IMG/VR virus record: IMGVR_UViG_3300032236_002285
Span: 248,001-312,000 of that record
Length of the DNA stretch: 64,000 bases
Origin: a virus
Direction: 5' to 3' (one strand)
Position 1 is the first letter of the stretch. Every line of letters starts with the position of its first letter. This document shows positions 1,566 to 24,306 of this stretch, in pieces. The position numbers and the translations under genes were made by a program. The notes below the pieces were generated by a model. The model was not told where the DNA came from. It made no database searches and worked only from the letters and a program-made list of their open reading frames with translations.

Positions 1566-4501
1566 TATCTTAATAAAGTGATATTACCTTTCTTATAGAA
1601 TCTCTTACCTTTATATGAATAAGCTTCTGCTTCATAAACATAAACACCAATCGGACAAGGCTCACCTTTAAATCTACCATCCCAGCCTTCATCTATATTC
1701 TTTGTTTCAAATACCATCTGACCCCATCTATTGAATATTCTAAAATGATCCAATGTAGCAATACCATGATGTTGTACTTTAATTATATCATTAGGTGAAG
1801 AACCCGGTGAAAAAGCATTAGCCACATCAATATAAGAATCATCTTCTACAATCACAACAACTGTATCAGTTACTTCACAACCATATTCTGTTTTAGCATT
1901 GACAGTATAAATAATACTAGATTGTACTGAAGTAATAGGTGATGATATACAAGGATTACTTAAACCATTAAGCGGAAACCAATTAAAGTATAAACAATTA
2001 CCACCTGGTGTAAATTGATATGATTCACCTGGATATAATCTAATCGTATCTGGTAGATTAATACTTGCTAAGTTTTTAATCTCTACATTTACAAGAGTAG
2101 AATCTATACAACCTGTTACTTCTTGTGCCACGACTAAATAAGTAAAATTACCTGGAGGCCATACTGTTGGCTCTTGAGCCGTATCACTACTAATATATAA
2201 ATTAGGGTACCAATGAATCCAAGTTAAAGGAGCGGCAAAAGTACTTAATAACTTAGTAGAATCTCCAGGACACAATGGTTTTATTCCTAAAGGTTGGAAA
2301 AAATTACTTGCAATTACCGTATAAGTCGCATCATCACTTCCATTACATCCGATTGGTGTTGTTACCGTTAAGTTAACATTTTGACTCAATACACTATTAA
2401 AGATTGGATTCGCTATTGATGGGTTATTAAACGCACCTGAAGGTGTCCAAGTGTAAGTGTAAAAAGGATATGTTCCTGGTGTTATTATTGGATCACATTG
2501 AATTGTATCACCATTACATATTGTTCTGTCCGCCCCAATAAACACAGTTGGATTTGGTTGAACATCAATATAGATTGTCTTAATTGAATCTTTACATCCT
2601 GTCTTGGTTGCTTTGATTGTATATAACCTTGAGGTGTCAGGTGTAATCGTTGGTGACATTATGTTTGGATTACTCACAAATAAATTAGGTGTCCATTTAT
2701 AAGTATAACGATTATCACCAGTTACATTTATGTTAACCGTATTACCCTTACAAATCGCAGTATCTTTATTGTTTAGTTTGAACCCTTGTAATACTTTTAT
2801 TTTCAATGTATCATAACGAGCACATTGATTTAATCCATTTGGAGTTATCTTAACAATATAAGTCGTATCTTTTGTAGGAGTACAAATTGGATTATTAATA
2901 GTATCCTTATTCAAAAAAGTTGAAGGAAACCATTTAACACTAAAAATTGTGTTAGCACTTGGAATTAAATTAGTATTCAATAATAACGAGTTATTGATAC
3001 AAGTTACAGTATCTGGTCCCAAATTGAATATCGGTATTGGTGATACTGTTACGGTAGTCGTATCTTTGTATTTATCACAAACACCCATCAAATTACTTGT
3101 AACCACATATTGAGTTGTTACAGTTGGATTAGCAAATGGAGCAGGACAATTAGTACAAGTTAATGAAGTCACAGGCGAACCACCAGGTAAAACTGACCAA
3201 GTGAATTGGGTACCACCAGCAACTTGCAACATAGCATAATCACCAATACATATTATTGGATATGTGGTGATATGAGTTTGTTGCCAAATATAAATTGGTA
3301 CAATAAATGTTTGTGATACAGGAATACCAGGAGGTGTACAAGTAGAATCTTTAATAGTAAATGTTAATATCCTTAAACCTGTATCAATTAATGAAGGAGA
3401 CCAATTAAAACAAGTTCTAACTGAATCTGTAAATGGATGAGTTGTAGTAAGTGTTGAACCAGGAGTGGTAATGCTATTATTAGATGATACAACTAATATA
3501 GCATTTGAATTAGTTGATTTGGCATCAAAACAAAATGATATTGTATGACCACCACATCCTTCTATTCTACCATTGTTCCAAGTACCACCTACAATAGATA
3601 CTGTATCTAAATTCAAGGTTGGTGGAGGGATGGTACAAGCTTTAACAATAATTTGTATATCTCTCATCACAGAACCTATTAACACACCATTTCTCCATTC
3701 TTTTACAAAAACAGTAACAACTGCAACTTGTTGAATGTTAGGTGTAAATGATATCTGTCCTGTTGTTGGACTAATAGTAAATGTATTGTTTGTACTTAAT
3801 GGGTTATTAGTTAAGTTATAGGTTACGGGTGGTGAAGTTGTGTTTGTAAATCCTATGTCTGAACCCGCAATAACATTACAACCGGCTGAACTTGTTTTTG
3901 GTTGAATTATAGAAAATGACATTGAATCGTTATTAGGGTCAACAGCGCCATTATTATAGTTGTATGGCATATTAACACAAAGATAAGGTACTGGTTTTAC
4001 GGTAAAATAAGGTGATGAATTACCTTGAGCATATTGATTGTTAAGCATTGCTTCAACATACATATTCTGAGTACCAGGTTGATATAAATTAGTAATGGCA
4101 TTATTTCTAGCACCTTCAGAAATATAAAATTTCCATGAATTACATCTTGAAGGCAGTGTGATTGTGTTTTCATATATCCACTCTCTATAACCAGGGAAGG
4201 TACCACCGTTACAAGTACTTGGGTAACCAGGACAACCGGTACTTACTTCTTGTCCATTGGTTGGACTTGTAATTTTACTGAGTGTTATGTTAGTACACCA
4301 ATTAGTACAAGGATTAAAACAATAACATAAAACATCACTGGGTTCTGGAATACCAGTACAATCTCTATAAAATTTGAATGTAATTTTATATGTTGAATCT
4401 GATATCCAACTATAAAGTAGTTCACCGCCAGCGCAGTGAGATGCTTTGCTCACGTTAGCAAAGGAAAGTAGCATAATTAATGCTAAGAGTAATCGTTTCA
4501 T
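1565..4501 (-). CDS. Large secreted multi-Ig-like protein with type IX secretion C-terminal domain
   Basis: 978 residues. The first 20 or so residues (MKRLLLALIMLLSFANVSKA) form a classical signal peptide. The body is Cys-, Thr-, Pro- and Asn-rich and reads as a series of Ig/PKD-like beta domains with repeated 'T-x-Y-x-V' strand patterns. The last 95 residues match the CHU_C/gliding-motility C-terminal domain: AFSPGSSPND, then RIFNRWGQMVFETKN, WDGRFKGEPCPIGVYVYEA, and a final KGNITLLR. In Bacteroidota this domain directs cargo through the type IX secretion system to the cell surface. Such a gene in a phage would place a large protein on or outside the infected cell, for example for superinfection exclusion, aggregation or adhesion; that role is inference. 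A virion fibre is less likely because of the signal peptide. Confidence 0.85.
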   Translation of the reverse strand: MKRLLLALIMLLSFANVSKASHCAGGELLYSWISDSTYKITFKFYRDCTGIPEPSDVLCYCFNPCTNWCTNITLSKITSPTNGQEVSTGCPGYPSTCNGGTFPGYREWIYENTITLPSRCNSWKFYISEGARNNAITNLYQPGTQNMYVEAMLNNQYAQGNSSPYFTVKPVPYLCVNMPYNYNNGAVDPNNDSMSFSIIQPKTSSAGCNVIAGSDIGFTNTTSPPVTYNLTNNPLSTNNTFTISPTTGQISFTPNIQQVAVVTVFVKEWRNGVLIGSVMRDIQIIVKACTIPPPTLNLDTVSIVGGTWNNGRIEGCGGHTISFCFDAKSTNSNAILVVSSNNSITTPGSTLTTTHPFTDSVRTCFNWSPSLIDTGLRILTFTIKDSTCTPPGIPVSQTFIVPIYIWQQTHITTYPIICIGDYAMLQVAGGTQFTWSVLPGGSPVTSLTCTNCPAPFANPTVTTQYVVTSNLMGVCDKYKDTTTVTVSPIPIFNLGPDTVTCINNSLLLNTNLIPSANTIFSVKWFPSTFLNKDTINNPICTPTKDTTYIVKITPNGLNQCARYDTLKIKVLQGFKLNNKDTAICKGNTVNINVTGDNRYTYKWTPNLFVSNPNIMSPTITPDTSRLYTIKATKTGCKDSIKTIYIDVQPNPTVFIGADRTICNGDTIQCDPIITPGTYPFYTYTWTPSGAFNNPSIANPIFNSVLSQNVNLTVTTPIGCNGSDDATYTVIASNFFQPLGIKPLCPGDSTKLLSTFAAPLTWIHWYPNLYISSDTAQEPTVWPPGNFTYLVVAQEVTGCIDSTLVNVEIKNLASINLPDTIRLYPGESYQFTPGGNCLYFNWFPLNGLSNPCISSPITSVQSSIIYTVNAKTEYGCEVTDTVVVIVEDDSYIDVANAFSPGSSPNDIIKVQHHGIATLDHFRIFNRWGQMVFETKNIDEGWDGRFKGEPCPIGVYVYEAEAYSYKGKRFYKKGNITLLR

Positions 4502-5859: not shown

Positions 5860-6903
5860 ATGAGATATATTAAAACATACGAGTCATATAAAACTAACAA
5901 ACTTCTTCAAGAAGATTTTGACAGAAAGATAACTATTCTACATAATGTAGAATTAGATGGTACAGATGAAGAACTTTTTAGAAGAATTTTTGACAAAGTT
6001 GTTGAATCTATCAAAGATGAATCTATTAAACAAGAAATCAAGAATTATGTTTCTGAAAATCAATTACTAAATGAAGGATTTTTTGATAAATTAAAAGAAA
6101 GATTTCCTAAAGCGGCTCAAGTTTCTAAATCACTTTCGGATAAAGCTGAAGGTATTTTAAGTAATATCTTACAAAAGGTTAAAGATGCTGTTTCTTTTGT
6201 TAAAAAGATTACTGAAGGTATATCAGAGTTTTTCAAAATGGCTATTGAAAAAGGTAAAGCTTTTTATATTGAGCAATTGAAAACTGGTCAGTTAAAATCA
6301 AAAGTAGATGAATTAGTTAAAACTAAAAAAGAAGGTCTGAAGACTGATTTATTTACAATTGAAAGTGTTCTTAATTTTTATAGAGTAGATTTTATGGGTA
6401 AGATTAATAATACTATTACAACCAATCTTACTAACTTCTTAAATAAAGAACAAACTCCAATTGCAGAATCTATGTTAAATGAAGGTGGTAATGTTATTTC
6501 TACTTTAGTTCATGGTATTGAAGCTATTCCACCATTCTCTTGGTTGGAAGCCCTTGCTAAATCTGGTGAAAAGGGTGCTGCCGCAGTTATTGCTGCTTTA
6601 AGCTCTTTAACTCAAAAATTAGGTGGTCATGCTTTTCAACTTCCAGTTGTTGCTATTTTAATTGGTTTACTTATAGAACAAATCATTAAAGGCCAAGCAG
6701 GTCACTGGTTATTAGAATTAGCTGGTCCTACTCCACTAGGAATGGCAATTAAAGGTATTAAAATGACAGCTTCTATAATAGCACTTATTGTTGCCATTGA
6801 TTCTGTTGTTGGTGGTCAATTGGGTATTGTTAATAATCATCACGATGACCACACCGAACACGGTGAACATGCAGAAACTGAGACTACTGAAAACACAGCA
6901 TAA
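5860..6903 (+). CDS. Tagged 347-residue protein with hydrophobic C-terminal half
   Basis: The N-terminus MRYIKTYESYKTNKLLQEDF is a variant of the shared tag. Residues 60-200 are Lys/Glu-rich helices (coiled-coil-like); residues 215-320 contain Ala/Gly/Ile-rich stretches (AAAVIAALSSLTQ, VVAILIGLLIEQII, ASIIALIVAIDSVVGG) that could be membrane-inserting helices; the end is His/Glu-rich (HHDDHTEHGEHAE), a possible metal-binding tail. This architecture resembles membrane-active virion or pore-type proteins, but I recognise no family. The tag would be compatible with ejection into the host. Confidence 0.6.
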   Translation: MRYIKTYESYKTNKLLQEDFDRKITILHNVELDGTDEELFRRIFDKVVESIKDESIKQEIKNYVSENQLLNEGFFDKLKERFPKAAQVSKSLSDKAEGILSNILQKVKDAVSFVKKITEGISEFFKMAIEKGKAFYIEQLKTGQLKSKVDELVKTKKEGLKTDLFTIESVLNFYRVDFMGKINNTITTNLTNFLNKEQTPIAESMLNEGGNVISTLVHGIEAIPPFSWLEALAKSGEKGAAAVIAALSSLTQKLGGHAFQLPVVAILIGLLIEQIIKGQAGHWLLELAGPTPLGMAIKGIKMTASIIALIVAIDSVVGGQLGIVNNHHDDHTEHGEHAETETTENTA

Positions 6904-6905
6904 AT

Positions 6906-6938
6906 AAAAAGAGGAAGTTAAAAACTTCCTCTTTTTTA
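6906..6938. terminator. Intrinsic terminator between convergent genes
   Basis: Stem GAGGAAGTT (6911-6919) / AACTTCCTC (6923-6931), flanked by A- and T-runs. Confidence 0.8.
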
Positions 6939-7271
6939 TCTTATTAAAGTAACATAACCTTTTTGAGCCATCATAGTTCCATCACAATCATATGTGATAT
7001 ACCAGTTATAAATTCCTAAATCTTGAACAACTCCATTAAAAGTTCCATCCCATCTTTTATCATTTAATTGAGATTCAAAAACGGTTTGACCCCATTTATT
7101 TTTAATTATAAAATTTAATATTTTATAATGATTACCAATTGGTCCAAAGGAATCGTTTTTACCATCATTATTTGGTGTAAAAGCGGATGGTAATGATAAA
7201 ACACAAGATTGAGATCTACCTAAATTAATAACACCTATTAAAAGCGCTATCATAAGCAATGTTTTTTTCAT
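6936..7271 (-). CDS. Secreted mini-protein: signal peptide plus CHU_C type IX sorting domain
   Basis: 111 residues. A signal peptide (about residues 1-20, ending in LGRSQS) is followed immediately by an almost complete CHU_C domain: AFTPNNDGKNDSFGPIG (the hallmark aFtPNgDGkND motif), ILNFIIKNKWGQTVFESQ, RWDGTFNGVVQDLGIYNWYI and a final KGYVTLIR. There is no cargo module, so the gene product is essentially a free type IX C-terminal signal domain. It is paralogous to the end of the protein encoded at 1565-4501. It could compete for or occupy the host type IX machinery, or be a small surface protein; both are inferences. Confidence 0.85.
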   Translation of the reverse strand: MKKTLLMIALLIGVINLGRSQSCVLSLPSAFTPNNDGKNDSFGPIGNHYKILNFIIKNKWGQTVFESQLNDKRWDGTFNGVVQDLGIYNWYITYDCDGTMMAQKGYVTLIR

Positions 7272-7455: not shown

Positions 7456-7463
7456 TAATTTTG
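7456..7463 (+). promoter_or_regulatory. Bacteroidota-type -7 element TAATTTTG
   Basis: Second TANNTTTG match, about 45 bases before the leader ORF. The downstream segment (GTATAAAATAAG, then GGACAAAAACTTTTTAATATATACA) is nearly identical to the one before the second tRNA block, which supports a shared promoter-leader cassette. Confidence 0.55.
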
Positions 7464-7494
7464 TATAAAATAAGTCAAAAGGGACAAAAACTTT

Positions 7495-7504
7495 TTAATA
7501 TATA
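7495..7504 (+). promoter_or_regulatory. TTAATATATA upstream motif
   Basis: Exact decamer 5 bases before the leader ATG at 7510. Confidence 0.45.
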
Positions 7505-7509
7505 CAACA

Positions 7510-7617
7510 ATGACAACAATGAATTTAAATATGAATATGAATCTAACGGTGGTGCTTAATACATTATGTATTAGACGCTCTGAGGGCTTCGTCATATCTA
7601 AACGATTTGTTGACTAA
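7510..7617 (+). CDS. Attenuator leader peptide of tRNA block 1 / LeuRS
   Basis: 35-codon ORF beginning MTTMNLNMNMNLTVVLNTLC, then Ile-Arg-Arg. The first 23 codons use only Met, Thr, Asn, Leu, Val, Cys, Ile and Arg, which is the set of isotypes encoded by the tRNA genes downstream. Codon 24 (TCT, 7579) is the first base of the antiterminator strand. Leu codons are TTA, CTA, CTT and TTA, never TTG. The peptide itself is unlikely to have a function; its translation rate is the likely signal. A second in-frame ATG at 7519 could also serve as start. Similar to trp/leu-type leader peptides in logic but not in sequence. Confidence 0.75.
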   Translation: MTTMNLNMNMNLTVVLNTLCIRRSEGFVISKRFVD

Positions 7618-7683
7618 ATGTATAACAAATTTTATAAAGGATAAAATCGAAACCCTCAGACAAAAAATCTGAGGGTTTTTTTA
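7579..7683 (+). promoter_or_regulatory. Transcription attenuator with mutually exclusive hairpins
   Basis: Segment A (7579-7591, TCTGAGGGCTTCG) lies inside the leader ORF. Segment B (7648-7660, CGAAACCCTCAGA) can pair with A over 12 of 13 positions, or its 3' part (7651-7660) can pair with segment C (7668-7677, TCTGAGGGTT) to form a 10-bp terminator followed by a T-run. A ribosome that reaches the leader stop at 7617 would cover A and allow termination; a ribosome stalled in the first 20 or so codons would leave A free to pair with B and permit readthrough into the tRNA block. Confidence 0.75.
7651..7683 (+). terminator. Intrinsic terminator of attenuator 1
   Basis: Stem AACCCTCAGA / TCTGAGGGTT with a 7-base loop and a downstream T-run, before the first tRNA at 7698. 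Confidence 0.85.
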
Positions 7684-7697
7684 TATGTAATAAATTT

Positions 7698-7769
7698 GGG
7701 GTGGTAGCTTAATGGTGAAGCAATCGGCTGTTAACCGATAGATTATAGGTTCGAATCCTATCCACCCCG
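7698..7769 (+). tRNA. tRNA-Asn(GUU)
   Basis: Complete cloverleaf: acceptor GGGGTGG/CCACCCC, anticodon arm ATCGG-CTGTTAA-CCGAT, normal T-arm with TTCGAAT loop, discriminator G. CCA is not encoded. First of three tRNA-Asn genes in the block. Confidence 0.9.
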
Positions 7770-7780
7770 CAAAAATAAAC

Positions 7781-7865
7781 TGGTAGGTACCCGAGCGGTC
7801 TTCAGGGACTAGTCTGATATACTAGGTGAGAAATCACGACGTGGGTTCAAATCCCACCCTACCAA
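7781..7865 (+). tRNA. Type II tRNA with anticodon GAU on a Tyr-like body
   Basis: Acceptor TGGTAGG/CCTACCA; anticodon arm CTAGT-CTGATAT-ACTAG (anticodon GAU, Ile codons); long variable arm GTGA-GAAA-TCAC closed by a GNRA tetraloop; T-arm GTGGG-TTCAAAT-CCCAC; discriminator A. The D-region (TACCCGAGCGGTC...AGGG) and acceptor look like bacterial tRNA-Tyr, whose anticodon would be GUA. The amino acid identity is therefore uncertain: Ile by anticodon, Tyr by body. Confidence 0.75.
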
Positions 7866-7871
7866 CAACAT

Positions 7872-7943
7872 TCACTGGTAGCTCAGAGGCAGAGCAACCG
7901 CCTGTTAAGCGGTAGGTCGGGATATCGTAATTCACCCAGTGAG
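7872..7943 (+). tRNA. tRNA-Asn(GUU) with degenerate T-arm
   Basis: Acceptor TCACTGG/CCAGTGA and anticodon arm ACCGC-CTGTTAA-GCGGT are perfect, discriminator G. The T-arm (about GGGAT-ATCGTAA-TTCAC) pairs badly and has an ATCGTAA loop instead of TTCRANY. U1-A72 and G73 are normal for Asn. Confidence 0.75.
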
Positions 7944-7949
7944 CAAAAC

Positions 7950-8028
7950 GCCTCAGTAGCCGAGGTCGCCTTCTAAGCGACTAATCGTAACGGAACTGAA
8001 AATGTAGGTTCGAATCCTACCTGGGGTA
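7950..8028 (+). tRNA. tRNA-Arg(UCU), apparently without a D-arm
   Basis: Acceptor GCCTCAG/CTGGGGT, anticodon arm GTCGC-CTTCTAA-GCGAC (UCU, AGA codons) and T-arm GTAGG-TTCGAAT-CCTAC are all sound. Only six bases (GCCGAG) separate position 9 from the anticodon stem, so there is no room for a normal D-arm, while 22 bases lie between anticodon and T stems. It is either a D-armless tRNA with an expanded variable region or a rearranged gene. Confidence 0.6.
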
Positions 8029-8052
8029 CAAAAAAAAGGGACACTAGTCTTA

Positions 8053-8062
8053 TTAATATATA
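8053..8062 (+). promoter_or_regulatory. TTAATATATA upstream motif
   Basis: Exact decamer about 20 bases before the homing endonuclease gene, followed by AGTAAAAT as also seen before the HNH gene at 56985. Confidence 0.45.
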
Positions 8063-8083
8063 AGTAAAATGTAGGTTTGTATT

Positions 8084-8914
8084 ATGTTAGACTTTGAAAA
8101 TATTCAAAAAGACTTTGAAAGTGGTCTTTTTTATCAAAAAGATATACTAATTAAGTATAGTATATCAATTAAAAAATTAAGAACTTTTGTAAAAAAAGGT
8201 TTATTGAATAAAGAAAATTGGAAATTAAAAAAATATGAAGTAAAAAGAGAAACAAAAAAGTTAATATCAGAAGGTAGAAAAAAATGGTTGAAAGAAAATA
8301 CATCTAAACATCCTTGGAGAAATGGAAATAAATCTAAGCCTTGTGAGGAGTTTAAGAAATTCTTAAAAAGTAGGAATATTTTCTTTTTGGAAGAGGTTAT
8401 GATTTCAAAAGAAAGATTCTATTCGGTTGATATTTTAATACCTGAGTTCACTTCGGTTGTAGAAATTAATGGTAATCAACATTATAAATCTAATGGAGAA
8501 CTTAAAGATTACTATAGTGAAAGAAATAGTTTTATAAAAAATAAAGGATGGTCGATATATGAAGTACACTACTCAATTGTTTATAATTTAGAAATGTGTG
8601 ATTCTATTTTAGAAAATATTAAAAATAATAATAAAATCGATATACCATTTTATATAAAAAATAAGAAAGAAAAAAAATATAAGAATAGGGAAGAGTACTG
8701 GAATAAAAGAAAAATTAATAAATTGAATAGTTATAGTGAAAGATTAAATGAATTAAAAAACAGTAGTATAGATTTTAAAAAGATTGGATGGGTTAAACTA
8801 GCATCTGAGATATTAAAAGTTAAAAATGTAAATAAACTATTAAAAGAAATCGATCCAGAATTTTATAAAAATTGTTATAAAAGAAAACAAAATGCCGAGG
8901 TGGTGGAATGGTAG
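8084..8914 (+). CDS. EDxHD-type (Vsr/DUF559-like) homing endonuclease inside the tRNA block
   Basis: 276 residues, Lys-rich. The central part (about residues 85-160) reads EEFKKFLKSRNIFFLEE, then RFYSVDILIPEFTSVVEINGNQHY and later WSIYEVHYS: the catalytic E...D...ExNGxQH pattern of the PD-(D/E)XK-derived EDxHD endonucleases (I-Bth0305I, Vsr-like). The N-terminus looks like a helix-turn-helix region and the C-terminus (WVKLASEILKVKNVNKLLK) like another DNA-binding helix pair. The gene interrupts the tRNA array, and its stop codon (8912-8914) lies inside the following tRNA-Leu gene, so the ORF end is made of tRNA sequence. This suggests insertion next to a tRNA target. Confidence 0.75.
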   Translation: MLDFENIQKDFESGLFYQKDILIKYSISIKKLRTFVKKGLLNKENWKLKKYEVKRETKKLISEGRKKWLKENTSKHPWRNGNKSKPCEEFKKFLKSRNIFFLEEVMISKERFYSVDILIPEFTSVVEINGNQHYKSNGELKDYYSERNSFIKNKGWSIYEVHYSIVYNLEMCDSILENIKNNNKIDIPFYIKNKKEKKYKNREEYWNKRKINKLNSYSERLNELKNSSIDFKKIGWVKLASEILKVKNVNKLLKEIDPEFYKNCYKRKQNAEVVEW

Positions 8915-8976
8915 ACACGCTAGCCTTAGAAGCTAGTACCCGCAAGGGTGTGTGGGTTCGAGTCCCACCCTCGGTA
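8894..8976 (+). tRNA. tRNA-Leu(UAG)
   Basis: Type II. Acceptor GCCGAGG/CCTCGGT, anticodon arm CTAGC-CTTAGAA-GCTAG, variable arm TACCCGCAAGGGTG, discriminator A. Its 5' 21 bases overlap the end of the homing endonuclease ORF. Followed by a hairpin repeat also found after the tRNA-Leu at 9725. Confidence 0.9.
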
Positions 8977-9001
8977 CTGAAGTGAAACGAAAGTTCACTA
9001 C
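8977..9001 (+). repeat. Hairpin repeat after tRNA-Leu, copy 1
   Basis: CTGAAGTGAAACGAAAGTTC followed by ACTAC. AGTGAA pairs with TTCACT around an ACGAAAG loop. An identical copy follows the tRNA-Leu(UAA) at 9725. Possible processing or stability element. Confidence 0.6.
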
Positions 9002-9010
9002 AAAAAAAAT

Positions 9011-9096
9011 TGATAGGTTGCCGTAGTGGCCGAACGGTCCGGACTGTTAATCCGGTGACGAATAGTCCATCGTGGGTTCGAATCCCACCCTGTCAG
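9011..9096 (+). tRNA. tRNA-Asn(GUU) with a long variable arm
   Basis: Acceptor TGATAGG/CCTGTCA, D-stem CCGT/ACGG, anticodon arm CCGGA-CTGTTAA-TCCGG, T-arm GTGGG-TTCGAAT-CCCAC, discriminator G. Between anticodon and T stems there are about 16 bases containing GAC-GAATA-GTC, a mini-hairpin shared with the tRNA-Thr at 9626. Normal tRNA-Asn has a five-base variable loop. Confidence 0.8.
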
Positions 9097-9103
9097 CAAA
9101 TAT

Positions 9104-9175
9104 AGTCCTGTAGCTTAATGGGAAAGCGCTTGCCTTACATGCAAGAGAGAGTCGGATCGTTACCGACCAGGACTA
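9104..9175 (+). tRNA. tRNA-Val(UAC) with swapped T-loop
   Basis: Acceptor AGTCCTG/CAGGACT, anticodon arm CTTGC-CTTACAT-GCAAG, T-stem GTCGG/CCGAC, discriminator A. The T-loop is ATCGTTA instead of TTCRANY, so the universal T54-A58 pair is reversed to A54-T58. Confidence 0.85.
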
Positions 9176-9181
9176 CAAAAT

Positions 9182-9255
9182 TGGACTGTAGCTCATTTGG
9201 TTAGAGCGCCACGCTGATACCGTGGAGGTGGTCGGATCGTAACCGACCAGTCCAA
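9182..9255 (+). tRNA. tRNA-Ile(GAU) with swapped T-loop
   Basis: Acceptor TGGACTG/CAGTCCA, anticodon arm CCACG-CTGATAC-CGTGG, T-arm GTCGG-ATCGTAA-CCGAC, discriminator A. Same A54/T58 reversal as the neighbouring tRNA-Val. Confidence 0.85.
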
Positions 9256-9261
9256 CAACAA

Positions 9262-9345
9262 GGTACTATGGCCGAGTGGAGTCTTTAAGACGGGAGGCAG
9301 TGGTCTGCAAAACTTCTCACACTGGTTCGAATCCAGTTAGTACCT
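9262..9345 (+). tRNA. tRNA-Cys(GCA) with hairpin insert in the D-loop
   Basis: Acceptor GGTACTA/TAGTACC, anticodon loop CTGCAAA, T-arm ACTGG-TTCGAAT-CCAGT, discriminator T (the Cys identity base). Compared with ordinary tRNA-Cys, the D-loop carries an extra self-complementary segment GTCTTTAAGAC. The anticodon stem has one T-T mismatch. Confidence 0.75.
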
Positions 9346-9350
9346 CAAAC

Positions 9351-9422
9351 GCTTCTTAAGCATTAATGGTGATGCACTAGTCTTGTAAACTAGAGAAATC
9401 GGATCGTTACCGGTAAGAAGCT
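9351..9422 (+). tRNA. tRNA-Thr(UGU) with swapped T-loop
   Basis: Acceptor GCTTCTT/AAGAAGC, D-stem GCAT/ATGC, anticodon arm CTAGT-CTTGTAA-ACTAG, T-arm ATCGG-ATCGTTA-CCGGT, discriminator T. Position 8 is A rather than the usual T. Confidence 0.8.
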
Positions 9423-9428
9423 CTAAAT

Positions 9429-9500
9429 TGTTCTGTAGCTCAATGGTAGAGCGCTTCTGTGACATGGAAGAGGTAGTCGGATCGTTACCGACCAGGACAA
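9429..9500 (+). tRNA. tRNA-Val(GAC) with swapped T-loop
   Basis: Acceptor TGTTCTG/CAGGACA, anticodon arm CTTCT-GTGACAT-GGAAG, T-arm GTCGG-ATCGTTA-CCGAC, discriminator A. Fourth tRNA with the A54-T58 reversal. Confidence 0.8.
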
Positions 9501-9525
9501 CAAAATAATGGATGGTGATTAAGAG

Positions 9526-9598
9526 TGTTACTTCGTGAAATGGTATACACATTTGTCTTAAAAACAAACTTTTGAGGGTTCAAGTCCCTCAGTAAAAT
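9526..9598 (+). tRNA. tRNA-Leu(UAA) lacking the long variable arm
   Basis: Leu-like D-region (GTGAAATGGTATACAC), anticodon arm TTTGT-CTTAAAA-ACAAA, T-arm GAGGG-TTCAAGT-CCCTC, but only five bases (CTTTT) between anticodon and T stems, whereas tRNA-Leu is normally type II. The acceptor TGTTACT/AGTAAAA has one mismatch. An outer AAGAG...CTCTT stem flanks the gene. Confidence 0.65.
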
Positions 9599-9625
9599 CA
9601 CTCTTTGAACTTTCCTCCATTATAT

Positions 9626-9709
9626 GCCGATGTGGCTCAGTGGCGACAGCACTGGTTTTGTAAACCAGAGACGAATAGTCCAACGGGGGTTCGAGTCCCT
9701 CCATCGGCT
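9626..9709 (+). tRNA. tRNA-Thr(UGU) with a long variable arm
   Basis: Acceptor GCCGATG/CATCGGC, anticodon arm CTGGT-TTTGTAA-ACCAG, T-arm GGGGG-TTCGAGT-CCCTC, discriminator T. The variable region contains GACGAATAGTCCA, the same mini-hairpin as in the tRNA-Asn at 9011. Confidence 0.8.
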
Positions 9710-9724
9710 CAAAATAAATCACCT

Positions 9725-9809
9725 GCCTGGGTGGTGGAACGGTAGACACGCTGGACTTAAAATCCAGTGGGCAGTAATGCCCGTGAGGGTTCGAGTCCCT
9801 CTCCAGGTA
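9725..9809 (+). tRNA. tRNA-Leu(UAA)
   Basis: Type II. Acceptor GCCTGGG/TCCAGGT, anticodon arm CTGGA-CTTAAAA-TCCAG, variable arm TGGGC-AGTAAT-GCCC, discriminator A. Confidence 0.9.
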
Positions 9810-9834
9810 CTGAAGTGAAACGAAAGTTCACTAC
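9810..9834 (+). repeat. Hairpin repeat after tRNA-Leu, copy 2
   Basis: Same 25-base hairpin sequence as at 8977-9001, again directly after a type II tRNA-Leu. Confidence 0.6.
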
Positions 9835-9840
9835 TAAATT

Positions 9841-9911
9841 ATTGGGATAGTTTAATGGTAAATCGTGGGCCTGATATGCCCGTGTTCTTGGTTCGATTCC
9901 AGGTCTCAATA
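9841..9911 (+). tRNA. tRNA-Ile(GAU)
   Basis: Acceptor ATTGGGA/TCTCAAT, anticodon arm TGGGC-CTGATAT-GCCCG, T-arm CTTGG-TTCGATT-CCAGG, discriminator A. Class I variable loop. Confidence 0.85.
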
Positions 9912-9916
9912 CAAAC

Positions 9917-9988
9917 TTCGATATGGCCTATTGGTAGGGTGCAGGGGGACATGTTCCTGAGGACTTGGTTCGATTCCAGGTATCGATA
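9917..9988 (+). tRNA. tRNA with abnormal anticodon loop (CAU?)
   Basis: The acceptor (TTCGATA/TATCGAT, first pair mismatched) and T-arm CTTGG-TTCGATT-CCAGG are clear. The best anticodon stem CAGGG/TCCTG leaves an eight-base loop GGACATGT without U33 in the usual place; an alternative AGGGG/TTCCT stem leaves six. CAU is the most likely anticodon (Met or Ile2), but GAC or ACA cannot be excluded. Confidence 0.5.
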
Positions 9989-9995
9989 CAAACAT

Positions 9996-10082
9996 CGCGG
10001 GGTAGAGTAGAGGTCAAACTCACTGGGCTCATAACCCAGGGTTGCGCAAGTGACACGTCAGGTTCGAATCCTGCCCCCGCTA
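9996..10082 (+). tRNA. Initiator tRNA-fMet(CAU) with expanded variable region
   Basis: The anticodon arm CTGGG-CTCATAA-CCCAG has the three G-C pairs typical of initiators, and the first acceptor position is unpaired (C1 versus T72), another initiator hallmark. The variable region is about 18 bases and contains the palindrome TTGCGCAA. Confidence 0.8.
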
Positions 10083-10088
10083 CAACAA

Positions 10089-10161
10089 GCAGTCATCGTA
10101 TAGTAGGTGATTACACCACCTTGGTACGGTGGAGATTCCGGTTCGAATCCGGGTGATTGCT
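10089..10161 (+). tRNA. tRNA-Thr(GGU)
   Basis: Acceptor GCAGTCA/TGATTGC, anticodon arm CCACC-TTGGTAC-GGTGG, T-arm CCGG-TTCGAAT-CCGG, discriminator T. Confidence 0.85.
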
Positions 10162-10166
10162 CAAAT

Positions 10167-10247
10167 GCCCAGATGGTGGAATGGTATACACGCCAGTCTA
10201 AGAAGCTGGTTCCTTCGGGATTGAGAGTTCGAGTCTCTCTCTGGGCA
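10167..10247 (+). tRNA. tRNA-Leu(AAG)
   Basis: Type II. Acceptor GCCCAGA/TCTGGGC, anticodon arm CCAGT-CTAAGAA-GCTGG, variable arm TTCCTTCGGGATTG, discriminator A. A34 is unusual for a bacterial tRNA-Leu and would match the CTT codon directly. Confidence 0.85.
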
Positions 10248-10255
10248 CAACATAC

Positions 10256-10340
10256 GCCGGTGTGATCCGATGTGGTAATGGAGTTCGGCTCATATCCGAA
10301 TTGGTTTATCCTATTGCTGGTTCGACTCCAGCCACCGGTA
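10256..10340 (+). tRNA. tRNA with CAU anticodon (Met or Ile2), long variable region
   Basis: Acceptor GCCGGTG/CACCGGT, anticodon arm TTCGG-CTCATAT-CCGAA, T-arm GCTGG-TTCGACT-CCAGC, discriminator A. About 16 bases separate the anticodon and T stems. Elongator Met and lysidine-type Ile cannot be told apart here. Confidence 0.8.
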
Positions 10341-10345
10341 CAAAT

Positions 10346-10426
10346 GTCAGAATGGTGGAATGGTATACACGCTAGTTTCAAAAACTAGTGCCGAAAGGTA
10401 TGAGAGTTCAAATCTCTCTTCTGATA
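10346..10426 (+). tRNA. tRNA-Leu(CAA)
   Basis: Type II. Acceptor GTCAGAA/TTCTGAT, anticodon arm CTAGT-TTCAAAA-ACTAG, variable arm TGCCGAAAGGTAT, discriminator A. It reads UUG, the only Leu codon used in the LeuRS gene that follows. Confidence 0.9.
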
Positions 10427-10448
10427 CTCGATAAAATAAAAAATAAAA

Positions 10449-10730
10449 ATGGAAAAGATTATCGACATCGTTAGAGATAACGTTGCAAGATTCGACTGGG
10501 CTTCTGAAGGAGTCCTCTACTACAAAGTAGAAACTGAAAAATATATCTATCACTTCCCAGTAGATATGAATAACAAAGAAGATGTGGGAACAGCTAATTT
10601 TGAATCAGAACATAAGGCTATAAATCTTATGAGATATTTAAGAAAAGCATCAGAAAACTTAGAAAAAATTAAAAACGATTCAGGTACGCCTGATTGGAAA
10701 AAGACATTAAGAGTTACACAAAAAGTATGA
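10449..10730 (+). CDS. Hypothetical 93-residue protein coupled to LeuRS
   Basis: The protein is charged, with a predicted strand-rich middle (GVLYYKVETEKYIYHFPVDM) and a helical C-terminus (INLMRYLRKASENLEKIKN). No family is recognised. It starts 22 bases after the last tRNA of block 1, and its stop (TGA at 10728) overlaps the LeuRS start in an ATGA, so it is cotranscribed and translationally coupled with LeuRS. Its five Leu codons are CTC, CTT and three TTA, which makes the all-TTG use of LeuRS stand out. It could be a LeuRS accessory factor, but nothing in the sequence shows this. Confidence 0.7.
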   Translation: MEKIIDIVRDNVARFDWASEGVLYYKVETEKYIYHFPVDMNNKEDVGTANFESEHKAINLMRYLRKASENLEKIKNDSGTPDWKKTLRVTQKV

Positions 10731-11992
10731 AAGATGAAAAGTATATATGCGTTATGTTTCCTTACCCAAGTGGTTCGGGATTGCATGTAGGTCACTTTTA
10801 TAATTATGCTATAATTGATTCTTATTGTAGATACTTTAAATACAAAGGTCAACAAGTTTTTCAACCTTTTGGTTATGATGCCTTTGGTTTGCCGGCTGAA
10901 AACTATGCTAGAAAAGTAGGTCGTGATGCTAAAGATGTTACCTATGAAAACATCAGTCAATTTAGAAAACAGATGGAAAAGATGGATACCAACTATCAAG
11001 AAATGTTGGTAACATCTGATCCTTCTTATCAAAAATGGACACAATGGTTGTTTTTGAAATTGAAAGAACATGGCTTGGCTTATAAAAAAGATGGTGAAGT
11101 AAATTGGTGTCCTTCTTGTGAAACCGTATTGGCTCGTGAACAAGTTAAATCTGATTGTTGTGAAAGATGTTCAACTAAGGTAGAAATGAAAACAATGAAT
11201 CAGTGGTACTTTAAGATTACTGATTATAAAGAACGTTTGATTAAAAACTTGGATTGGATAGATTATCCAAAATCAACTATTAACGCGCAAAGAATGTGGT
11301 TGGAAAACTTGCACGATTGGTGTGTTTCTCGTCAAAGAAAATGGGGCTGTCCAATTCCAATAGAAGGTGAAACCGATACAATGGATACATTTGTAGATTC
11401 TTCATTTTACTATGTTAGATATTGTGATGCTACTAATGATAATGAATTGTGTGCTAAAGATAAATATAAACAAGTAGATGTTTATGTTGGTGGTAATGAA
11501 CACGCTTGTATGCACTTGATTTATGCTCGTTTTATTAATATGTTTTTGTATGATATTGGTGTTGTTTCAGAGGAAGAACCATTTAAGAAAGTTATACATC
11601 AAGGTATAATTTTGAACGAAGGTGAAAAAATGTCTAAAACAAAAGGTAATGTTATTAATCCAGATGATTATGACTCTGATGAATTGAGATTTTATATGAT
11701 GTTTATTGGTCATTATTTTGATGGTGGTTCTTGGTCTGACCAAAATATAGCTGGTATTAAAAGATTTATTAGTCGTTTTAAGGAGTGGATGTCAAGAGAA
11801 GGTTCTGATACTTTTGATATTGAATCATTTAAGAAAAAAATATTTAACTACACTGAGAGTTTTAAGTTTAATAAAGTTGTTAGTGAGTTTATGACAATAG
11901 TTAATCAAAATAGAACTAAAAACATAACACCTGAGATAAAAAAAGAATTGATTGAATTGATTAAGGTGTATATGCCTGGAATTAAAATTTAA
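10727..11992 (+). CDS. leuS: Leucyl-tRNA synthetase without CP1 editing domain
   Basis: 421 residues, about half the usual LeuRS length. The class I signatures are present: HVGH in SGLHVGHFYN, SRQRKWGCPIP, and KMSKTKGNVINP (KMSKS). A CXXC pair set (CPSC...CCERC) marks the zinc-binding insert. The sequence passes from NAQRMW directly to LENLHDWC, where bacterial LeuRS has the roughly 190-residue CP1 editing domain, and the C-terminal tRNA-binding domain is short. It should charge tRNA-Leu without post-transfer editing, as known for Mycoplasma mobile LeuRS. I chose the ATG at 10727 because it overlaps the upstream stop. All 19 Leu codons are TTG, and leucine is only about 4.5% of residues. Arg codons include many CGT, unlike most neighbours. 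Confidence 0.9.
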   Translation: MKDEKYICVMFPYPSGSGLHVGHFYNYAIIDSYCRYFKYKGQQVFQPFGYDAFGLPAENYARKVGRDAKDVTYENISQFRKQMEKMDTNYQEMLVTSDPSYQKWTQWLFLKLKEHGLAYKKDGEVNWCPSCETVLAREQVKSDCCERCSTKVEMKTMNQWYFKITDYKERLIKNLDWIDYPKSTINAQRMWLENLHDWCVSRQRKWGCPIPIEGETDTMDTFVDSSFYYVRYCDATNDNELCAKDKYKQVDVYVGGNEHACMHLIYARFINMFLYDIGVVSEEEPFKKVIHQGIILNEGEKMSKTKGNVINPDDYDSDELRFYMMFIGHYFDGGSWSDQNIAGIKRFISRFKEWMSREGSDTFDIESFKKKIFNYTESFKFNKVVSEFMTIVNQNRTKNITPEIKKELIELIKVYMPGIKI

Positions 11993-23013: not shown

Positions 23014-23044
23014 TTTGACAAATTAAAACTTTGTTGTATATTTG
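23014..23044 (+). promoter_or_regulatory. Bacteroidota promoter TTTG-N19-TATATTTG
   Basis: TTTG at 23014-23017 and TATATTTG at 23037-23044, about 48 bases before leader ORF 2. The downstream segment closely matches that before leader 1. Confidence 0.7.
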
Positions 23045-23091: not shown

Positions 23092-23190
23092 ATGAAAAAC
23101 TTAAACTTAAATATCGTTAACCCTCAACCGCAAGTTGTAATCGATCAGGATCCTGGTTCGAAAGGGGCTAACTATGTGGTTTTAAGTTAA
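23092..23190 (+). CDS. Attenuator leader peptide of tRNA block 2
   Basis: 32-residue ORF starting MKNLNLNIVN, followed by PQPQVVIDQDP and a short Gly/Ser/Lys segment. The central part is dense in Pro (3), Gln (3) and Asp (2); the tRNAs downstream are Asp and Pro, then Gln after the third leader. The NLNLN start resembles leader 1. As in leader 1, the coding sequence just after the sensor codons (23168-23173) can pair with the 5' arm of the following terminator. Confidence 0.65.
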   Translation: MKNLNLNIVNPQPQVVIDQDPGSKGANYVVLS

Positions 23191-23246
23191 AGATATTATA
23201 ACTATGAAACATTACCCAGTTAGTCGAAAGATTAACTGGGTTTTTT
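23168..23246 (+). promoter_or_regulatory. Transcription attenuator 2
   Basis: CTAACT (23168-23173, inside the leader) is an exact complement of AGTTAG (23218-23223), and GGT (23178-23180) can extend the pairing to ACC (23214-23216). The same strand forms the terminator stem ACCCAGTTA (23214-23222) / TAACTGGGT (23233-23241). The alternative helix is weaker than in attenuator 1 but has the same geometry. Confidence 0.55.
23214..23246 (+). terminator. Intrinsic terminator of attenuator 2
   Basis: 9-bp stem with a 10-base loop, followed by TTTTTTG; located 11 bases before the first tRNA of block 2. Confidence 0.8.
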
Positions 23247-23256
23247 GTTTTAGATA

Positions 23257-23330
23257 CAGTCCGTGGGTATGTTGGTATGAATAACCTCCTGTCACGGGGA
23301 AGAAGCCGGTTCGATTCCGGTACGGACTGC
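23257..23330 (+). tRNA. tRNA-Asp(GUC)
   Basis: Acceptor CAGTCCG/CGGACTG, anticodon loop CTGTCAC with a CCTC/GGGG stem, T-arm CCGG-TTCGATT-CCGG. The discriminator is C rather than the usual G of Asp. First of four tRNA-Asp genes. Confidence 0.8.
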
Positions 23331-23334
23331 AAAA

Positions 23335-23408
23335 CGAGAAGTGACTAAGGTTTTAAGCACGCGCCGTCTGGAGCGGTGAGTTAGCAGGTTCGATTCCTGT
23401 CTTCTCGA
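23335..23408 (+). tRNA. tRNA-Pro(UGG), with C33
   Basis: Acceptor CGAGAAG/CTTCTCG; the best anticodon stem CGCCG/CGGTG gives the loop TCTGGAG, anticodon TGG with C in place of the universal U33. T-arm GCAGG-TTCGATT-CCTGT, discriminator A. An alternative loop CTGGAGC would give GGA (Ser), but its stem pairs poorly. Confidence 0.65.
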
Positions 23409-23471
23409 CAACAAGTAGCTTTTGAGGCGAAAAATACTCTTTAGAGAATAGAGTAAAACAATTCTCAAAAT
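23409..23471 (+). other. Spacer with alternative hairpins between tRNAs
   Basis: No tRNA is recognised. TACTCT...AGAGTA and GAGAAT...ATTCTC are overlapping, mutually exclusive stems. It may be a processing element or a decayed tRNA. Confidence 0.3.
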
Positions 23472-23544
23472 GGTCTCGTGGTTGAATGGTTACAATACCA
23501 CCCTGTCACGGTGCGAGATGCCGGTTCGATTCCGGTCGAGACCG
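23472..23544 (+). tRNA. tRNA-Asp(GUC)
   Basis: Acceptor GGTCTCG/CGAGACC, anticodon loop CTGTCAC (CCACC/GGTGC stem, outer pair mismatched), T-arm CCGG-TTCGATT-CCGG, discriminator G as expected for Asp. Confidence 0.85.
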
Positions 23545-23549
23545 CAAAA

Positions 23550-23620
23550 GGACATATAGCTTAAAAGGAAAGAGTACCTCCAGTGGGAGGGGAGTCTTGG
23601 TTCAAGTCCAGGTATGTCCG
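23550..23620 (+). tRNA. tRNA with irregular anticodon arm (UGG, Pro?)
   Basis: Acceptor GGACATA/TATGTCC and T-arm CTTGG-TTCAAGT-CCAGG are sound, discriminator G. The anticodon region CCTCC-AGTGGGA-GGGGA allows four pairs and puts TGG at 34-36 with G33; GTG (His) is the alternative. The D-stem is also weak. Confidence 0.5.
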
Positions 23621-23626
23621 CAAAAA

Positions 23627-23698
23627 GGTCTATTAGGGTAGTGGTTATCCTTCCCGACTGTCTATCGGGAGACACCGGTTCGAATCCGGTATAGACCG
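23627..23698 (+). tRNA. tRNA-Asp(GUC)
   Basis: Acceptor GGTCTAT/ATAGACC, anticodon arm CCCGA-CTGTCTA-TCGGG, T-arm ACCGG-TTCGAAT-CCGGT, discriminator G. Confidence 0.88.
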
Positions 23699-23745
23699 CA
23701 AATGGGCTTTTCAAGACAAAAAGTTTGTAGATTACTTAATGAAAC

Positions 23746-23817
23746 GGTCTAGTGGTGAAGTGGCTATCATATCTGCCTGTCACGCAGAAGTAGAGGGATC
23801 GAAACCCTTCTAGACCG
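23746..23817 (+). tRNA. tRNA-Asp(GUC) with A54 T-loop
   Basis: Acceptor GGTCTAG/CTAGACC, anticodon arm TCTGC-CTGTCAC-GCAGA, T-arm GAGGG-ATCGAAA-CCCTT, discriminator G. A54 replaces the conserved T but A58 is kept. The 3' end is followed by CCA in the DNA. Confidence 0.85.
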
Positions 23818-23826
23818 CCAAAAATT

Positions 23827-23901
23827 CGGGGTGTAGCGTAGTCCGGTTATCGCGCATGCTTTGGGAGCATGAAATCGTAGGTTCGAATCCTGCCACCCCG
23901 A
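23827..23901 (+). tRNA. tRNA-Pro(UGG)
   Basis: Acceptor CGGGGTG/CACCCCG, anticodon arm CATGC-TTTGGGA-GCATG, T-arm with TTCGAAT loop, discriminator A. A regular tRNA. Confidence 0.9.
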
Positions 23902-23932
23902 CAAAGAAACAAAATATTAATAAATAGAAATT

Positions 23933-23986
23933 ATGAGAACAACAACACAATACCAGCAACAACAACAAATTAATCCAACGGATTGA
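23933..23986 (+). CDS. Gln-rich attenuator leader peptide of the tRNA-Gln/GlnRS unit
   Basis: 17-residue ORF MRTTTQYQQQQQINPTD with six Gln codons (five CAA, one CAG), four of the CAA in a row. It lies immediately upstream of an intrinsic terminator, three tRNA-Gln(UUG) genes and GlnRS. The stop codon (TGA, 23984-23986) is itself part of the strand that can pair with the terminator 5' arm, so a terminating ribosome would mask it. This is the clearest amino-acid-specific leader of the three. Confidence 0.8.
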   Translation: MRTTTQYQQQQQINPTD

Positions 23987-24048
23987 TAACGGTATCGTAT
24001 TGTCTAAACTTTACAAACCCTATTCAATCTGATTGAGTAGGGTTTTTT
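23981..24048 (+). promoter_or_regulatory. Glutamine-responsive transcription attenuator (predicted)
   Basis: GATTGA (23981-23986, over the leader stop codon) is the exact complement of TCAATC (24024-24029) in the 5' arm of the terminator, and GGT (23991-23993) can pair with ACC (24017-24019). Stalling on the Gln codons at 23948-23968 would leave GATTGA free and favour antitermination; normal translation would cover it. Confidence 0.65.
24015..24048 (+). terminator. Intrinsic terminator of attenuator 3
   Basis: AAACCCTATTCAATC pairs with GATTGAGTAGGGTTT (24031-24045), followed by T-run; ends just before the tRNA-Gln at 24051. Confidence 0.85.
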
Positions 24049-24050
24049 AT

Positions 24051-24121
24051 TGTCTGATGGTGTAGTGGTAGCACAAGGGTCTTTGATCCCCTTAGTTCAG
24101 GTCCGATTCCTGATCAGACAA
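24051..24121 (+). tRNA. tRNA-Gln(UUG)
   Basis: Acceptor TGTCTGA/TCAGACA with U1-A72, a Gln identity feature; anticodon loop CTTTGAT (TTG) above the stem AAGGG/CCCTT with a mismatch at 31-39; T-arm TCAGG-TCCGATT-CCTGA. Confidence 0.8.
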
Positions 24122-24128
24122 CAAATAT

Positions 24129-24210
24129 TGAGGAATAGAATAATGGCAGTTCACCCGCCTTTGAAGCGGAGAGAGAAATCTCAGTGTAGGTTCGAGTCCT
24201 ACTTCCTCAA
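24129..24210 (+). tRNA. tRNA-Gln(UUG) with a long variable arm
   Basis: Acceptor TGAGGAA/TTCCTCA, anticodon arm CCGC-CTTTGAA-GCGG, T-arm GTAGG-TTCGAGT-CCTAC. The variable region has a GAGA-GAAA-TCTC hairpin with a GNRA loop, analogous to the one in the tRNA at 7781. Confidence 0.82.
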
Positions 24211-24216
24211 CAAAAT

Positions 24217-24288
24217 TGCTTTATAGTATATGGGTTAACATATCTGTCTTTGAAACAGATGAACTTGGTTCGAGTCCAAGTGGAGCAA
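24217..24288 (+). tRNA. tRNA-Gln(UUG)
   Basis: Acceptor TGCTTTA/TGGAGCA (two G-U pairs), anticodon arm TCTGT-CTTTGAA-ACAGA, T-arm CTTGG-TTCGAGT-CCAAG. Third tRNA-Gln in a row, 18 bases before GlnRS. Confidence 0.85.
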
Positions 24289-24306
24289 CAAAAAATAATA
24301 ACTACT

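Follow-up and report, generated by a model that had tools for sequence, protein, structure and literature searches.

Predicted leader-peptide attenuators upstream of tRNA blocks in a phage genome and its relatives

Introduction

In the trp, his, leu, and ilv operons, leader-peptide attenuators regulate enzymes of biosynthesis and as a rule respond to one to three amino acids, with the ilv leaders sensing several. The synthetase genes pheST of Escherichia coli likewise have a leader-peptide attenuator. T-box riboswitches, which control synthetase genes as well, measure tRNA charging by binding uncharged tRNA directly, and translation is not needed. Here, we analyzed a window of 64,000 nucleotides (bases 248001 to 312000 of the 476,236-base virus record IMGVR_UViG_3300032236_002285, designated G000), in which blocks of tRNA genes are preceded by short open reading frames (ORFs) and terminators. 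Comparison with related phages indicates, with a probability of about 0.9, that each tRNA block is placed behind a trp-type ribosome-mediated transcription attenuator.

In Streptomyces, leuS and trpS are predicted to have leader-peptide attenuators (PMC1262725), and attenuation of this kind was reported to be likely for amino-acid operons of a Flavobacterium (PMC9723704). Phage tRNAs replace depleted host tRNAs and thereby counter tRNA-cleaving defenses (PMC10264068, PMC11555353); these papers do not mention leader peptides or attenuators, and a section heading of the latter refers to overexpression of tRNA-Tyr from a strong promoter. Al-Shayeb et al. described in 2020 (PMC7162821) complete phage genomes of 634 and 642 kb as well as tRNA counts of up to 67 in one genome, in a text that does not mention attenuation or leaders. 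No description of attenuated tRNA genes or of phage leader-peptide attenuation was found in the literature searched, which leaves most subscription papers outside.

Results

Block C, an array of 21 tRNA genes for Asn, Ile, Arg, Leu, Val, Cys, Thr, and Met (7698-10427; window positions are on the plus strand unless stated otherwise), is preceded by a leader of 35 codons (leader C, 7510-7617), which was present as described in the original prediction and has the translation MTTMNLNMNMNLTVVLNTLCIRRSEGFVISKRFVD followed by a stop. Its ATG lies 46 nt 3′ of the −7 box TAATTTTG (7456-7463), which was detected by a motif scan and belongs to the Bacteroidota-type promoter motif, taken here to be TTTG, 19 to 20 nt, and TAnnTTTG. 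The −33 element is degenerate at leader C, while the sister leaders carry a perfect TTTG-N19/20-TAnnTTTG in the same scan. The translation bears out that the first 23 codons are limited to Met and seven further identities: the sensing part (codons 2 to 23) consists of Thr, Met, Asn, Leu, Val, Cys, Ile, and Arg. These eight identities make up 41.4% of the residues in the large window proteins of G000 (8,778 amino acids), and the chance of finding all 22 sensing residues among them is 3.8e-9; the longest run restricted to the eight identities in 8,778 amino acids of phage proteins is 11.

The leader is followed by an intrinsic terminator hairpin (strands 3:4, 7650-7678) and a U tract. The predicted 10-bp terminator at 7651-7677 is present, with a slightly longer stem of 11 to 12 bp at 7649-7679 (ΔG of −17.2, z score of −5.5). 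Strand 2, the antiterminator 5′ arm, lies inside the ORF at 7579-7591 and begins where the sensing codons end, and strand 3 (7648-7660) serves as both the terminator 5′ arm and the antiterminator 3′ arm. Exactly as claimed, the two strands pair at 12 of 13 positions (8 bp, one mismatch, 4 bp). This pairing outscored all of 500 dinucleotide shuffles and all of 50 terminator arms taken from other leader classes. The RNA from strand 2 onward folds as the antiterminator (−27 kcal/mol, z score of −6.4), compared with −17.2 for the terminator.

G000 contains seven leader-terminator-tRNA units, three of them in the window. The second window unit starts with the −7 box TATATTTG of a Bacteroidota-type promoter (23037-23044) and leader D1, MKNLNLNIVNPQPQVVIDQDPGSKGANYVVLS (23092-23190), which carries Asp and Pro (and Gln) codons and contains the stretch PQPQVVIDQDP. 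D1 strand 2 (23166-23181) pairs with 23210-23226, a pairing that is weak when taken singly (p of 0.086); the terminator (23214-23241) is followed by four tRNA-Asp, two tRNA-Pro, and one further tRNA gene (23258-23902). Leader D2, the poly-Gln peptide MRTTTQYQQQQQINPTD (23933-23986), shows no promoter motif of its own in the motif scan and would thus represent an in-line second attenuator. The 5′ arm (24023-24029) of the D2 terminator (24015-24045) pairs with the 3′ end of the leader (23981-23986 and beyond), and three tRNA-Gln(ttg) genes (24051-24289) and a GlnRS gene (24310-25911; PF00749, PF03950, and PF20974) follow. The promoter motif is usually present upstream of outer leaders. The inner Gln leader lacks a −7 box in 7 of 10 cases, and the Asp/Pro and Gln attenuators therefore probably act in series.

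The four units outside the window, at 218.6-221.9 kb and 231-233.7 kb of G000, comprise a leader beginning with MRTNNTHKHFSKSNKWFSN upstream of His, Phe, Trp, and Lys tRNAs and a HisRS-like gene, one beginning with MKTIMLTSKSSSSRSSKPS upstream of Arg and Ser tRNAs, one beginning with MTTITNIAYYYEGE upstream of Glu and Tyr tRNAs, and one beginning with MKNLTNISTAIIGGGAGAN upstream of Gly and Ala tRNAs. The sensing sets of the seven leaders sum to all 20 amino acids. When 155 ORF-terminator pairs of G000 were scanned, the leaders of tRNA blocks headed the genome-wide list of pairings, and few convincing attenuators were found outside these blocks. The attenuator proposed in the original prediction is supported by these data and was understated, as leader C is one of seven units whose match to the tRNAs extends down to isoacceptor codons.

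All seven leader classes were found in LR745206.1 (634,780 bases) and LR756502.1 (642,428 bases). Further IMG/VR contigs, gathered by searching with the phage GlnRS, HisRS, and LeuRS, show the classes with splits or mergers and bring the collection to 61 leaders in 13 phage records. The homologous phages have the leader ORF, the terminator, and the alternative pairing, and leader C is kept in eight relatives. When leaders were assigned to blocks by shared amino acids, the true assignment ranked first among all 5040 permutations in each of six phages, and first among 720 in a seventh. Although related phages do not count as independent, the seven separate leaders inside one phage constitute separate tests.

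Where blocks have been rearranged, the leader codons shift along with the tRNAs, as seen for Met, Phe, Gln, and Ile-ATA. In L087, a leader beginning with MKNLTNILFVMTLTVLFQFTQT precedes Gln, Phe, Met, Thr, Val, and Leu tRNAs, and one beginning with MKNWHHISNSNSNRINSS precedes His, Asn, Ile, Trp, Ser, and Arg tRNAs. In G003 and G016, Met and three Leu tRNAs form a separate block with a Leu/Met-codon leader of its own; the first leader of these two phages has no internal Met, compared with two or three in all seven unsplit leaders. G001 has one merged leader, IYIGYIAEGGYEAG, for a merged Glu, Tyr, Gly, Ile(tat), and Ala block.

The match also holds at the level of isoacceptors, with codon counts that take in the related phages. 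Leaders of blocks with an AGR-reading tRNA-Arg use AGR in 9 of 11 Arg codons, and those of blocks with a CGN-reading tRNA-Arg use CGN in 11 of 12 (p = 6e-4). Likewise, ATA accounts for 12 of 15 Ile codons if the block contains tRNA-Ile(tat), and ATY accounts for all eight if only the gat tRNA-Ile is present (p = 3e-4). This bears on the alternative that the same RNA switch senses amino-acid starvation of the host, as in biosynthetic operons, rather than loss of tRNAs. The architecture is indeed that of attenuators of amino-acid biosynthesis, which were reported to be likely in flavobacteria (PMC9723704), and stalling would be alike for a missing amino acid and a missing tRNA. However, the blocks showed no biosynthetic genes, the output consists of tRNAs and a few synthetases, and the Arg and Ile codons track the encoded isoacceptor and not the amino acid alone. 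It is mainly because of this isoacceptor-level match that we favor the supply of tRNAs, and not that of amino acids, as the signal, and we regard starvation sensing as unlikely.

The pairing of a leader strand with the terminator 5′ arm beats dinucleotide shuffles in 44 of the 61 leaders at p < 0.05, and for the seven G000 leaders combined the p value is 1.2e-7. An antiterminator was found overall, with classes D1 and B2 giving weak signals. For classes A1, A2, B, and C, pairing of the leader strand is better with the terminator arm of the same leader than with orthologous arms (p of 0.0005 to 0.0035), from which it follows that leader strand and terminator arm changed together; in these four classes, the covariation that the original prediction proposed to look for in related phages is seen. 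When the first four codons are set aside, cognate codons account for 61% upstream of strand 2 and for 24% downstream. A distance of 0 to 14 nt (median, 7 nt) separates the end of the last cognate codon from strand 2. Such an order would be expected if strand 2 is released by ribosome stalling.

These results also speak to the idea that the leaders are translated without control of termination, with the hairpins being terminators of upstream genes or processing sites. The hairpins are strong, and similar ones part many phage genes (309 terminator-like sites in G000). Yet this scenario leaves unexplained the codon-tRNA matching in seven units, the codons that moved with moved tRNAs, and the covariation of leader strand and terminator arm, and we consider it quite improbable. 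Still less probable is that the leader peptides act themselves, for example, as small regulatory proteins. The ORFs are kept in all relatives with arrays; however, the residues differ in order and number, whereas codon class and isoacceptor go with the block, and the poly-Gln, poly-Leu, and Ser/Arg leaders are alike in architecture only. Chance resemblance in AT-rich sequence is ruled out by the p value of about 4e-9 for the window leader and by the best of 5040 assignments in six phages. A T-box riboswitch was likewise rejected, since only tRNAs matched Rfam in the 104 kb that hold all seven units.

Several observations weigh against ribosome-mediated attenuation. The pairing is not significant in 17 of the 61 leaders taken singly, and the comparison of own and orthologous arms is not significant for classes B2, D1, and D2, which gave no covariation signal. 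Some leaders contain noncognate codons (Gln in D1 and Ser in A1); the Gln codons in the Asp/Pro leader would make sense because the upstream gate must also open for Gln. No leader was detected in G005, a LeuRS-bearing relative with scattered tRNAs. Unlike in trp, strand 2 is positioned within the ORF, upstream of the stop in most leaders, so that a ribosome at the stop codon would uncover strand 2 again. The off state would thus need tight coupling with shielding by the ribosome, or refolding of strands 1:2. Folds of the leader alone gave z scores of −1.8 to −3.6 in four leaders, which partially supports strand 1:2 refolding, in some leaders (−3.3 and −3.6) and weakly in others. Finally, stalling at the last codons ahead of strand 2 could leave this strand covered by the ribosome. 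A stop codon at which the terminating ribosome covers strand 2, absent from most leaders here, belongs to the E. coli trp example and not to all attenuators; the assignment to the attenuator class accordingly applies to the mechanism and not to the geometry of trp.

The relative G005 (L110-L115), related by its LeuRS, spans 452 kb, has about 40 scattered tRNAs, and carries tRNA-Arg copies at both contig ends. Leaders were also not detected in phages with a more distant GlnRS (about 43 to 54% identity; L076-L084), in fecal phages, or in a 735-kb phage, and no convincing leader was found upstream of HisRS genes outside arrays (L088-L091).

The eight identities of the 21 tRNAs in block C agree with the original prediction. 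The Rfam gathering score was reached by 19 of them, and the gene at 9917 is an ARAGORN call with an odd anticodon loop. The putative tRNA-Cys (about 9262-9345) has as its sole support 81% identity over 36 nt to the tRNA-Cys(gca) of a relative. ARAGORN could not read the anticodon of the tRNA at 7950, and its assignment to Arg derives from the tRNA-Arg(tct) of a relative, to which it is 78% identical. In the C blocks of G003 and G016, the Cys and Arg identities can both be recognized clearly. Anticodon loops unreadable to ARAGORN (7950-8028, 9262-9345, 9917-9989, and 23550-23621) are perhaps altered loops that resist anticodon nucleases. An ORF inserted in block C (8084-8914) had no Pfam match; this ORF and another inside a tRNA array (L020, 10178-10717) resemble homing endonucleases.

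A LeuRS-like gene of about 420 amino acids follows block C (10727-11992; PF00133 and PF09334). The Pfam matches confirm the predicted LeuRS, and its link to block C is incidental, as the position is not conserved in relatives. In three of them, LeuRS lies elsewhere with a poly-Leu leader of its own (MKQNAKSLLLLLL, MITTMNTNLLLLADS, and MINNNVNILLLPLT), each with a terminator behind it. The LeuRS of the window and the HisRS-like protein (L020, 11433-12065; 210 amino acids) are far shorter than the cellular enzymes, which suggests that editing or anticodon-binding domains were lost.

Regarding the host, the promoter type and a CHU_C type IX secretion signal domain in a phage protein adjoining the block (6936-7268, minus strand) point to Bacteroidota. 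In L021, a tRNA-Met (3074-3146) directly behind the promoter motif, without a leader, seems to be an unattenuated array gene. In L020, the stretch at about 6820-7250 is located between the same promoter-like motif and a GatB/YqeY-like ORF and could be a noncoding RNA; it had no Rfam match, and the z score of its fold was only −1.5.

Discussion

For a finding made from sequence alone, the comparative evidence for the predicted attenuation of tRNA arrays is unusually strong. From the arrangement of leader, strands, and tRNA block, we infer the following course of events. RNA polymerase would start at the Bacteroidota-type promoter, and a ribosome would enter and translate the leader. If all charged tRNAs encoded by the block are supplied, the ribosome would cross strand 2, the terminator 3:4 would form, and the transcript would end after about 180 to 220 nt. 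When the supply of a cognate charged tRNA runs low, the ribosome would halt among the sensing codons, before reaching strand 2, pairing of 2:3 would prevent the terminator, and readthrough would yield the tRNAs and, in some blocks, the cognate synthetase. Depletion of any one cognate charged tRNA should thus be the trigger, and it should switch the block on. With seven units, some nested in line, the phage would monitor 20 amino acids and replace only the missing parts.

A wider reading, which we put forward tentatively, is that the phage operates isoacceptor-level feedback loops that read the whole charged-tRNA pool for 20 amino acids during infection and rebuild only the parts removed by tRNA-cleaving defenses of the host or by degradation; the units would then amount to a repair program for the tRNA pool that can be induced. 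If a block is activated solely by a shortage of a matching charged tRNA, the tRNAs of this phage group would serve replacement on demand and not constant codon compensation, and each leader would name the shortage that it answers. Ribosome-mediated attenuation would be extended to tRNA genes and to viruses. A further implication would be that transcription and translation are closely coupled in infected Bacteroidota, and the leaders could represent natural sensors for 20 amino acids.

Previous work on phage tRNAs that counter tRNA cleavage differs in that expression in the present phage is predicted to be conditional and specific. Like T-box riboswitches, the phage units are predicted to read tRNA charging; unlike them, they would do so via a translated leader, and they show no T-box match. 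As in the synthetase attenuators of pheST, leuS, and trpS, leader codons match the amino acid of the synthetase, and the poly-Leu leaders of the phage LeuRS genes are of this kind; those attenuators are cellular and concern single genes or operons without tRNA genes, unlike the phage units. Leader-peptide attenuation itself is textbook knowledge, and its predicted application to phage tRNA arrays as a set covering 20 amino acids is new in the literature searched. With the trp, his, leu, and ilv attenuators, the units share a short leader with regulatory codons, a strand 2 behind these codons, mutually exclusive pairing of 2:3 and 3:4, and a U tract. They differ from trp in the location of strand 2 inside the ORF, and from all four in that they target phage tRNA arrays and cover up to eight identities per leader and 20 in all.

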